NCBI GenBank assembly: GCA_947470575.1
Contig: CANITX010000009.1
Location: 1 to 37,100 of the forward strand
Source: Rhodospirillales bacterium
GTDB lineage: Bacteria; Pseudomonadota; Alphaproteobacteria; Rhodospirillales; CAMCUA01
Direction of reading: 5' to 3'
DNA: 37,100 nucleotides
Shown here: piece after piece, positions 27,929 to 31,375 of the stretch
Position numbering within the stretch: the first letter of the stretch is position 1
Layout: each line of letters begins with the position of its first letter
The notes under the pieces: model-generated
Seen by the model: only the letters and a program-made list of their open reading frames with translations
What the model was told of the DNA's origin: nothing
Database searches by the model: none
Program-made: the position numbers and the translations under genes

Positions 27929-28624
27929 GTGACGCCGCCTATCCATGTTCGGCCCTCTCCCAACCACGATGCTCGCCCGCCGGGCGGGGCCGTCGACATG
28001 TTGGTATTGCACTATACCGACATGGCGGATGCTGCCGCGGCGCTGGCACGATTGTGCGATCCGGCGGCACGGGTCAGCGCCCACTACCTCATCGGCCGCG
28101 AGGGAACGGTCTACCGGATGGTCGACGAGGCGCGGCGCGCGTGGCATGCCGGCGAGGCCTTCTGGCGCGGCGCTTGCGACATCAATGCACGTTCCATCGG
28201 GATCGAATTGGACAATCCGGGACACGGGCTTGGCTTGGCGGCGTTTCCCGATGTGCAGATGGCGGCACTCGTCGCGCTGGCTGGCGCCGTCCTTGCCCGC
28301 CATCCCATCCCCTCCCAAAACGTCGTCGGCCACTCCGACGTGGCGCCTCGACGCAAACGGGACCCGGGCGAACTGTTCGACTGGCGCGGTTTGGCTGCGG
28401 CGGGCATCGGTTCGTGGCCATCCTCGGCGCCGCCCGTGCCGCCAGATCCGGCGGCGGCCGGCCGCCTCCTCGGCGACATCGGTTACGAGGTCGTCGATTT
28501 CTTGGCGACCGTCGCCGCTTTCCAGCGCCGCTTCCGGCCATCGCGGGTCGACGGCCTGCTCGATGCTGAGTCCATGGGCCTGATCGTTGCCATGGGGGAA
28601 CTCAGCCGTGCAGGCGGTGCTTGA
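27929..28624 (+). CDS. N-acetylmuramoyl-L-alanine amidase (AmpD/AmiD type) with peptidoglycan-binding domain
   Basis: The product is 231 aa. The Amidase_2 fold cleaves the bond between MurNAc and L-Ala. Zinc ligands fit H28 (VLHYT), H135 (VGHSDVAP) and D145 (KRDPGELFDW), with E93 (GIELDNPG) as a likely catalytic acid. A short peptidoglycan-binding domain (about 176-222) closes the protein. No signal peptide is seen, so cytoplasmic muropeptide recycling is likely, though AmiD homologues are lipoproteins. The start is GTG with AGAGG upstream. It lies directly before rnpB, a common alphaproteobacterial arrangement. Confidence 0.87.
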   Translation: MTPPIHVRPSPNHDARPPGGAVDMLVLHYTDMADAAAALARLCDPAARVSAHYLIGREGTVYRMVDEARRAWHAGEAFWRGACDINARSIGIELDNPGHGLGLAAFPDVQMAALVALAGAVLARHPIPSQNVVGHSDVAPRRKRDPGELFDWRGLAAAGIGSWPSSAPPVPPDPAAAGRLLGDIGYEVVDFLATVAAFQRRFRPSRVDGLLDAESMGLIVAMGELSRAGGA

Positions 28625-28649
28625 CCGTCCGGGATGGCGGCATTACCTG

Positions 28650-29092
<443 letters not shown>

Positions 29093-29457
29093 TTGCCTGC
29101 GAATGCCGGGTATCGGTTGCGGTTGAGCGTTGGTTGTATCCGAGGAGCATCTGTCTTGCCCCGGACCTAATTTTTCAAAAAACAGAACAAAACAGGAACT
29201 TTGTAGGGCAATATGCTCATGCCCATTATTGGTTTTTCAGTACTTTTGGAACGATTACTTGGTCGGTGACATGTGGAATTGCCCCGCAAGTGCTTGGCAA
29301 GACTTTCTTAACCCAAGTAACTCCATAGTCACCCATTGACGCCCATATTTACCCATGATATCCCAATTTGTCCCATAGGGATAAATTTGGGATTCGGGGA
29401 CGCAGGCTCGGCACTTCCGTGCCGGCAATGCGATGGAATGAGGGGGCTTGGGACCCT
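29093..29457 (+). promoter_or_regulatory. AT-rich regulatory spacer before mraZ
   Basis: This 365-bp spacer between rnpB and mraZ is markedly lower in GC than its surroundings. Apart from the CCCA array described separately, it holds a candidate promoter, TTGACG (29336-29341), 17 bp, TATCCC (29359-29364), placed inside the array. GAGGGGG (29440-29446) precedes the mraZ start. A 69-codon frame at 29130-29339 shows no similarity to a known protein and is not called. Confidence 0.6.
29312..29376 (+). promoter_or_regulatory. Tandem MraZ-box array (10-bp period)
   Basis: CCCA occurs at 29312, 29332, 29342, 29352, 29362 and 29372, with a near match TCCA at 29322, all exactly 10 bp apart or a multiple of it. 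On the other strand this reads TGGG with 5- to 6-bp spacers, the layout of MraZ binding sites described upstream of mraZ in other bacteria. MraZ would bind here to repress its own operon. Confidence 0.75.
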
Positions 29458-29931
29458 ATGGCGCTTCTCGTCGGGAGGCACGTCAACAAGATCGACAAGA
29501 AGGGGCGGGTTTCCGTGCCCAAGTCGTTCCGTGCGTCCTTCGACGGCCAAGGTTTTTCAGGTATTTACGCGTATCCATCCTTCAAGTTTCCCGCCATCGA
29601 GGCCTGTGGCGAGGCGTTCATGCAGCGCATCAGCGCCAGCTTGGAGAAGATGGAAATGTTCTCCGAGGAACAGGACGACCTCGCCGCGGCCATTCTGGAA
29701 AGCGCGCATGCCCTGCCTTTCGATCCGGAAGGTCGCATCGTGTTGCCGCCGCCCCTGTTGGCGCATGCCGGCATCGATGGTGAGGCCCTCTTTGTCGGGC
29801 GCGGCGCCCAGATGCAGATTTGGAATGGCGACAACTACGAGAAGCATCGGCAGCAGGCGTTGCAGCGGGCCCGGTCCCGCGGAGCGACATTGCAACTGAG
29901 CCCGGCTCTGCCGACCGAAGGCCCGTCATGA
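29458..29931 (+). CDS. mraZ: Transcriptional regulator MraZ
   Basis: The product is 157 aa. MraZ is an AbrB-like regulator that forms rings and represses the division/cell-wall operon that it heads. Two SpoVT/AbrB-like repeats are visible: [19 protein letters not shown] (residues 8-26) and [20 protein letters not shown]. The ATG at 29458 gives the usual MraZ beginning (short hydrophobic start, then N-K-I/L-D-K-K-G-R). Earlier in-frame ATGs would extend into the operator. It overlaps rsmH by 4 bp (ATGA at 29928-29931). Confidence 0.93.
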
Positions 29932-30923
29932 ACCGGCGAACCCACCACGAGCAGGACGCCACCGGCCTGCACCGGCCGGTCATGCTGGCTGAGGTTCTGG
30001 GCGCGTTGGCGCCCCGCGACGGTGAAGTCTATGTCGACGGTACGTTTGGCGGCGGCGGTTACAGCCGCGCCATCCTGTCGGCGGCGGCCTGTTCCGTATG
30101 GGCGATTGATCGCGATCCGTCCGCACTGGCCAGGGCCGCCGAGATCGCCGGAGCCAGCGGCGGCCGCCTGACGGTCATACTGGGCCGGTTCGGCGACATG
30201 CTGCCCCTGCTGACGGCCGAGGGGATCGCCCGTGTCGATGGCGTGGTCTTCGACCTCGGCGTCTCGTCGCCGCAAATCGACGACCCGGCGCGCGGCTTTT
30301 CGTTTCGCCACGATGGGCCGCTCGACATGCGCATGAGCGACGAAGGTGAGACAGCCGCCGATATCGTCAACGGCCTGCCCGAGCGGGAACTCGCCGATAT
30401 CATCTTTCGCTACGGCGAGGAACGGGCATCCCGGCGGGTGGCCAAGGCCATTGTCGCCTACCGCTCGCACACGCCGATCACCACCACGATCCAATTGGCT
30501 GAGATCGTTCGCGGCGTGGTGCGTCGTTCGGCGGACGGCATCGACCCCGCAACGCGCACCTTCCAGGCTTTGCGCATCCAGGTTAACGACGAGCTCGGCG
30601 AGCTTGATCGGGGTCTCGCAGCTGCCGAGGCCTTGCTGGCGCCGGAAGGCCGGCTGGTCGTCGTATCTTTCCACTCGCTGGAAGACCGGCGTGTAAAGGA
30701 CTTCATCCGCCGGCGCGCCGGACAAGAAGCGCGTCCGCACCGGCACCTGCCGGAAGCTGTATCGATACAGCGCCCGGCGACCTTCCGGCCGTTGACCCGA
30801 CGAGCCCTTAGTCCGGACGCCAACGAATTTTCCGCCAATCCGCGTTCCCGTTCCGCCCGACTGCGCGCCGCCGTACGAACGGCAGCGCCGGCCTGGCCGG
30901 ACGACGAACGCCAGGCGGCGTAG
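29928..30923 (+). CDS. rsmH: 16S rRNA (cytosine1402-N4)-methyltransferase
   Basis: The product is 331 aa. It methylates N4 of C1402 in 16S rRNA with S-adenosylmethionine. The SAM-binding motif is [11 protein letters not shown] (36-46). Family motifs follow: [43 protein letters not shown] and [15 protein letters not shown]. The start inside the mraZ stop indicates coupling. The Arg/Pro-rich end ([11 protein letters not shown]) is normal. ftsL follows after 11 bp. Confidence 0.94.
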
Positions 30924-30934
30924 GGGCGACGGGC

Positions 30935-31375
30935 ATGTTGCATCGTACCACCCTGATTGCCCTGCTGGCCTCCGCCGTCATCGGCGTTGCCTTGTTCGCG
31001 CTCAAATACCAAGTGCGCGATCTCGAAAACGAATTGACTGGCATCAACCGGCAGATCATTGCCCATCGCGAAGCCATTCATGTGCTGAATGCGGAATGGA
31101 GCCATCTCAACGACCCGGGACGTTTGGCGGCGTTGGCGGCGCGCCACCTCCAACTCCAGCCGACGACTCCCGACCGCATCGGCAGTTTTGCCAGTCTGCC
31201 GGCGGTTGGCGAGGCGGCGACGTCGATGGCTACGGCGTCGCTCCCGCTCCCCGCTGGAAAAACTCCTCGGCCGCAGGGCCGGCACGCGCCGGCAACGGTG
31301 CAGATCGACGATGGAGAGGAAGACTTCACGCCGCGGACCATGGAAGCCACGGTTGACGAAAGGTCTCCCCCATGA
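30935..31375 (+). CDS. ftsL: Cell division protein FtsL
   Basis: The product is 146 aa. FtsL is a bitopic inner-membrane divisome protein that joins FtsB and FtsQ and activates FtsWI. One membrane segment (5-23) is followed by a short coiled coil (YQVRDLENELTGINRQIIAH) and the alphaproteobacterial motif LNAEWSHLNDPGRLAALAARHLQL (51-74). The last 70 residues are an extra Pro/Ala/acidic tail, longer than in many FtsL proteins. The stop overlaps the ftsI start by 4 bp. Called from position and pattern because FtsL is poorly conserved. Confidence 0.88.
   Translation: MLHRTTLIALLASAVIGVALFALKYQVRDLENELTGINRQIIAHREAIHVLNAEWSHLNDPGRLAALAARHLQLQPTTPDRIGSFASLPAVGEAATSMATASLPLPAGKTPRPQGRHAPATVQIDDGEEDFTPRTMEATVDERSPP

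Follow-up and report, generated by a model that had tools for sequence, protein, structure and literature searches.

MraZ boxes at the Escherichia coli promoter Pmra were reportedly described by Eraso et al. in 2014. In E. coli K-12 we find three of them (locus L100), direct repeats upstream of mraZ with a TGGG core on the coding strand, set in 10-bp steps 3' of a distinct promoter (by eye, TTGACA and TAAACT) and associated with dcw autoregulation; E. coli MraZ is described as repressing its own operon from such upstream repeats (PMC7761207). The Burkholderia cenocepacia site, in the part of that source available to us, consists of 7-nt repeats with 3-nt spacers, numbers four repeats, lies downstream of the -10 element and over the start site, and resides on a fragment that is shifted by MraZ (PMC7761207). 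The Mycoplasma site, given as (AAAGTGKN3)3 and bound by an MraZ described as an octamer (PMC5282649), comprises three to four repeats according to the available text, and for M. genitalium the MraZ site before mraZ is stated to be the only such site in the genome (PMC8475190).

The array described here lies in a window of 37,100 nucleotides (the whole stretch of DNA analysed) from a Rhodospirillales assembly. As MraZ boxes generally do, its words form tandem direct repeats with a TGGG/GTG core and a 10-bp step, and they lie before mraZ, where the dcw cluster begins. It shares all of this with E. coli Pmra, the 10-bp step with B. cenocepacia, and the 10-bp direct repeats before mraZ with Mycoplasma, where the flanking bases are other. 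It departs from the E. coli and Burkholderia type, defined by TGGG or GTGG on the coding strand, a position downstream of the -10 element and three or four repeats, in having seven boxes that read CCCA on the coding strand and are interleaved with the predicted -35 and -10 elements. Coordinates are collected in Table 1.

Table 1. The putative MraZ operator, its predicted promoter and adjacent genes (window coordinates; distances relative to the predicted transcription start; box occupancy as at least 3/4 bases among 53 mraZ loci of the order)
Feature	Position	Strand	Sequence or product	Remarks
rnpB	28658-29089			Rfam; upstream of array
MraZ box 1 (candidate)	29312..29315	+	CCCA	~-59; 34/53; nearby off-phase control 0.04
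MraZ box 2 (candidate, weak)	29322..29325	+	TCCA	~-49; 30/53; exact CCCA in 6/53
MraZ box 3 (candidate)	29332..29335	+	CCCA	~-39; abuts 5' side of -35; 44/53
Predicted -35	29336..29341	+	TTGACG	takes up the whole interval from box 3 to box 4; in 53 anchored order loci, positions 0-4 are T,T,G,A,C at 0.89-1.00
MraZ box 4 (candidate)	29342..29345	+	CCCA	~-29; 53/53
MraZ box 5 (candidate)	29352..29355	+	CCCA	~-19, in promoter spacer; 53/53
Predicted extended -10	29356..29364	+	TG-A-TATCCC	T20, G21, A24 1.00, T23 0.96, T25 0.94 in 53 order loci
MraZ box 6 (candidate)	29362..29365	+	CCCA	~-9; 52/53
Predicted transcription start	29371 (within a few bases)	+		7 bp after -10; leader ~87 nt
MraZ box 7 (candidate)	29372..29375	+	CCCA	~+2; 43/53; next step (+12) only 3/53
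mraZ	29458..29931	+	157 aa, ATG	PF02381 53.5 bits (cut-off 23)
rsmH/mraW	29928..30923	+		PF01795 316.7 bits; next dcw gene, presumed target operon

Direct reading of the sequence confirms the original prediction of six CCCA words and one TCCA at exact 10-bp steps between 29312 and 29375, a register far beyond chance. The next step on either side is not a box (ACTT at 29302, TAAA at 29382), and 82 bp separate the 3' end of the array from the mraZ start codon. Given the CCCA density of the window, at least six of seven such words in register are expected 2e-9 times per window and 2e-7 times per 3.43-Mb draft genome, which leads us to reject a chance origin; when any tetramer at any step from 5 to 20 was allowed, the real window still reached 6/7, against maxima of 3 (one), 4 (38) and 5 (one) in 40 Markov-1 windows. 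A functionless relict, such as a decaying tandem duplication, is likewise hardly credible: beyond the shortness of the boxes nothing was found in favour of either, the gaps between boxes are not repeats of each other, and the boxes keep fixed promoter positions in 27 families, a conservation that contradicts both. The TCCA at 29322 looks like a real if ordinary weak site, because box 2 in the long arrays of relatives is itself mostly nCCA (ACCA, GCCA or TCCA). Other spacings were rejected, since at steps of 9 and 11 the best chain per order locus (n=53) held at most 2 exact words (3 sites, one imperfect). A search of 28000-30500 with Rfam at gathering scores returned only rnpB, and we therefore read the array as DNA rather than as an RNA element.

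In this genome, 91.7% complete, the array alone yields exact matches to the three-site pattern, three of them, overlapping. Allowing up to one mismatch yields 16 matches, of which 13 carry one mismatch (two of these in the array); 5 of the 16 are the array and 11 lie elsewhere. As a backwards control also gives 11, we claim no second MraZ target and reject a wider MraZ regulon in this genome.

The array had been said to enclose a candidate promoter, a wording that now appears too weak: a promoter is predicted, and its -35 and extended -10 elements lie inside the gaps between boxes. TGATAT takes up the whole interval from box 5 to box 6, the -10 hexamer runs three bases into box 6, and the spacer between the two elements is 17 bp. 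Across the order TTGAC and TGnTAT, 20 bp apart, each fill one 6-bp gap and are conserved about as well as the boxes themselves. By E. coli rules the hexamer TATCCC is poor, and an E. coli-style scan from rnpB to mraZ returned no promoter, the proposed one included, because it demands the T at position 6 that this hexamer lacks. The negative scan speaks against a conventional promoter between rnpB and mraZ, though the same scan misses the one proposed here. At three other loci (L121, L122 and L127; genomes G364 and G424) exact five- or six-site CCCA arrays precede mraZ with no TTGAC in a gap, and the promoter layout there differs.

PF02381 was found in 53 of the 60 genomes of the relatives set (own genome included; 7 without a match), and all 53 upstream regions were oriented and compared. 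A core template of 22 fixed positions (TTGAC at 0, CCCA at +6, +16 and +26, TGnTAT at +20) is matched at 19/22 or better in 53/53 order mraZ loci, a result partly circular because the template was derived from those loci; the 120 loci from the rest of the class and the genome-wide cross-tabulation below are less so. At a threshold of 17/22 the template is found in 53/53 order, 70/90 class and 22/30 lower-scoring class mraZ loci, and in 0/50 loci outside the class. Controls at that threshold gave 0 for one 2-mer-block shuffle per locus and, on the reverse strand, 0 in the order, 0 in the 90 class loci and 2 in the 30 lower-scoring loci; lowering the threshold to 16 lets the first controls through, with 1 reverse strand and 2 shuffles in the order and 5 reverse strands among the low-scoring class loci.

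An information profile over the 53 order loci, aligned on the template, displays seven peaks 10 bp apart, and occupancy drops off the array (2/53 at -69, 3/53 at +12) towards an off-phase background of 0.00-0.04. The same seven-position picture is obtained with one locus per family (27 families). Against a same-genus relative the box bases are kept at 27/28 positions and the array at 61/64, compared with 65/82 for the 82 bases 3' of it. Conservation of the phased words, whose lack in close relatives had been named in advance as a refutation, was thus examined across mraZ upstream regions of the class, and the words are kept. The strict 10-bp phase also claimed holds for this array and for contiguous boxes, but in 9/53 order loci a far box is 1 bp off register, usually beyond an intervening degenerate box (pair distances 21, 31 and 41). 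Exact CCCA occurs at p -25 in 6/53 loci and at p -15 in 3/53, with out-of-register words farther out in 4 more; in three of the nine slip loci (L017, L018, L023) TTGAC is shifted too.

Array length separates the order from the remainder of the class. Of 120 class loci examined beyond the order, 28 fell below the template threshold (20/90 and 8/30; among them L082, L087 and L099, where no array was found) and 92 could be anchored. Runs of at least seven boxes occur in 19/53 order loci and in only 2/92 anchored class loci beyond it, where four boxes (42 loci) and five (31) prevail. Seven is not a hard limit, since the number of sites depends on how they are counted: with 3/4 bases allowed, L041 in the order and L196 in the class present nine consecutive sites. 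The seven-site run of L057 rests on doubtful outer sites.

Outside the class the motif is turned around. In 50 mraZ loci from other classes of the phylum, a set weighted towards few families, the longest exact chain of GTGG on the coding strand at 10-bp steps is 3 in 31 loci, 4 in 8, 2 in 5 and 1 in 6. Chains of at least three GTGG thus occur in 39/50 of these loci, compared with 0/53, 0/90 and 1/30 in the order, class and lower-scoring class sets, while chains of at least three CCCA occur in 40/53, 61/90 and 15/30 of the latter and in 0/50 outside the class. Most of the GTGG arrays inspected follow, by eye, a TTGACa / TAaACT- or TATAGT-like promoter. The expectation of about three or four repeats in other bacteria agrees with the 39 loci holding exact chains of 3-4, and against these and the rest of the class the array merits the description 'unusually long'; within its own order such a length is common. 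Judged from these alignments, the putative operator in Alphaproteobacteria is inverted and shifted onto the core promoter relative to loci outside the class, and we regard the array as a real, conserved, promoter-interleaved variant of the known MraZ box.

That a promoter's surroundings are conserved does not identify the factor bound there, and the words might in principle belong to another regulator or be promoter or DNA-bending elements. A stricter core pattern (CCCATN5CCCATGNTATCCCA, up to one mismatch) was searched for in 387 class genomes and found in 190, being present in 190/326 PF02381-positive and 0/61 negative genomes (Fisher 6e-21), the negative set having been compiled by hand as the genomes absent from the PF02381 match list; its backwards control occurred in one genome (G073). 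Genome reduction alone does not explain this co-occurrence, because genomes of up to 8 Mb are found among those lacking MraZ. The association nevertheless speaks more for a link between array and gene than for binding, as loss of mraZ may remove the promoter with it and the profile may miss a diverged MraZ. Exact five-site arrays occur in 25/387 genomes, and in 24 of these an MraZ N-terminal motif follows in the same orientation, 134-254 bp downstream; the 25th is a simple tandem repeat. The array moreover has its TGGG word and its step of 10 bp in common with the one before E. coli mraZ. Together, conservation, position before mraZ and co-occurrence with MraZ strongly support the predicted identity of the words as MraZ boxes, and make a different binder, or none, quite improbable.

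One observation in favour of another regulator is an additional element over box 1. A TTAAC occurs at the same position, overlapping that box, in 19/53 order loci, and in a control segment 100 bp upstream it is present, at any position, in 0/53. The sequence at 29302-29314 of the window (ACTTTCTTAACCC), which overlaps box 1, belongs to a conserved type resembling ACTTTGTTAACC, shared by L047 and further order loci. The TTAAC stretch resembles a CtrA half-site. The mraZ gene of Sinorhizobium meliloti is reported to carry a CtrA motif, in the portion of the source available (PMC3616915).

The encoded protein has the MraZ fold with two DxxGR half-domains, D13, K15, G16, R17, D89, G92 and R93 being invariant in 42 aligned order sequences. 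Its single-chain AlphaFold2 model (mean pLDDT 90.8) aligns with the M. pneumoniae and M. genitalium MraZ structures 1n0e, 1n0f and 9qlg over 139 residues (Z 17.4-17.6, rmsd 3.0-3.1). It also matches 9r4j at Z 17.3 and 9sz7 at Z 16.8, complexes whose titles read 'with its promoter' and 'with 4 box promoter', respectively. After mraZ follow rsmH and, by Pfam domains, ftsI-, murE- and murF-like genes; a 146-aa frame between rsmH and ftsI (30935-31375, + strand) has no Pfam match and is an ftsL candidate by position. The nearest named records (L129, CAMCUA010000106.1; L130, CAMBXJ010000271.1) encode 92% identical MraZ and derive from metagenome bins called Asaia bogorensis, a label that looks doubtful, the relatives next in line being mainly uncultured Rhodospirillales.

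The array is most likely an autoregulatory MraZ operator at the head of the dcw cluster, at which MraZ rings would occlude the promoter and limit expression of mraZ and the genes downstream. Each CCCA (ATGGG on the other strand) would be one MraZ box, and the seven, from about -59 to +5, would be interdigitated with a sigma-70-type promoter. Boxes over that span take in the DNA on which polymerase sits in a closed complex. Rings of MraZ bound cooperatively at neighbouring boxes would cover the -35 element, spacer, -10 element and start site, barring RNA polymerase, and MraZ would thereby limit its own level together with the cell-wall and division genes behind it. We infer both binding by MraZ and repression as its result, with occlusion the most likely mode of action.

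The geometry of the site also bears on an alternative in which MraZ binds the array but activates transcription or tolerates polymerase. The -35 element and TGnTAT each have their centre 5 bp away from a box centre, on opposite faces of B-DNA, so that MraZ and sigma might bind on either side of the helix and MraZ might hold or recruit polymerase; yet any 6-bp element in a 6-bp gap would face away from the boxes. The boxes at -59 and -49 extend past what simple occlusion needs, while at the other end the 3' half of the -10 hexamer, where melting occurs, is itself made of box bases, and a further box sits at the start site. Published effects point both ways, within the parts of the sources available: MraZ overexpression accompanies more FtsZ in M. 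gallisepticum (PMC8475190), the M. genitalium ftsZ transcript has a log2 value of 2.34 in a column that we read as the mraZ mutant (PMC8475190), and in E. coli MraZ represses (PMC7761207). We retain co-occupancy or activation, as an unlikely alternative to occlusion, because of the half-turn offset between boxes and promoter elements and the rise of FtsZ in M. gallisepticum.

How many MraZ subunits occlusion would engage can be approached from the length of the array. That it could accommodate most of a ring, as the original prediction held, is geometrically possible, with two smaller rings equally allowed. A bolder version, specific to the order and in our view unlikely, has a single MraZ ring or arc wrapping, or being wrapped by, the DNA from -59 to +5 with one subunit per box, from which seven of about eight subunits would be inferred to be engaged. 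Eight boxes of 10.0 bp each would span 80 bp, close to one nucleosome-like turn, and MraZ would then act as a promoter-sized spool, unlike the E. coli block downstream of -10. The 1-bp slip of the far box beyond a degenerate box would, on such a model, mark families in which two rings share the array; the slips as aligned here fit two separately bound modules, at least in the slip families.

Transcription starts predicted by a single rule, which places them 35 bp beyond the initial T of TTGAC, were compared with published leaders. We presume that families f49, f179 and f108 are the Rhodobacteraceae, Rhizobiaceae and Caulobacteraceae, the same as those of the mapped species. The predicted leaders are 257-295 nt at five f49 loci (varying with the start codon chosen), 159-180 nt at four f179 loci and 54-58 nt at two f108 loci. 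The available text of the mapping study gives a 268-nt leader for Rhodobacter sphaeroides dcw (2016), with a 206-nt sRNA, UpsM, ended by a terminator, a leader of 170 nt for S. meliloti, and leaders of typically at most 70 nt for species outside the Rhodobacteraceae, Caulobacter crescentus included (PMC5089854). If the presumed family assignments are right, the predicted starts agree with these lengths. At the same five f49 loci (L264, L265, L266, L267 and L273), there is a strong hairpin of intrinsic-terminator type whose end falls 207-211 nt past the predicted start; Rfam, applied to 11 class loci, gave no match to an UpsM family and only rnpB, in 3 of them. The f49 loci match the core template only at 17-19/22, and degenerate MraZ boxes lie on the predicted promoter of a leader matching UpsM. 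If true, this abundant sRNA would be under MraZ control in f49, presumably the Rhodobacteraceae.

Our literature search, which left subscription papers mostly outside its reach, found neither an alphaproteobacterial MraZ operator or MraZ-binding data nor an inverted, interleaved variant of seven or more boxes; we claim neither absence from print for the former nor priority for the latter. MraZ heads the division cluster of many bacteria, and the E. coli, Burkholderia and mycoplasma operators found in the literature have three or four boxes. A class-wide inverted operator that is the core promoter itself would imply competition with polymerase rather than a downstream block, and the natural arrays of four, five and seven boxes may offer a ready series for learning how a ring reads a straight repeat.
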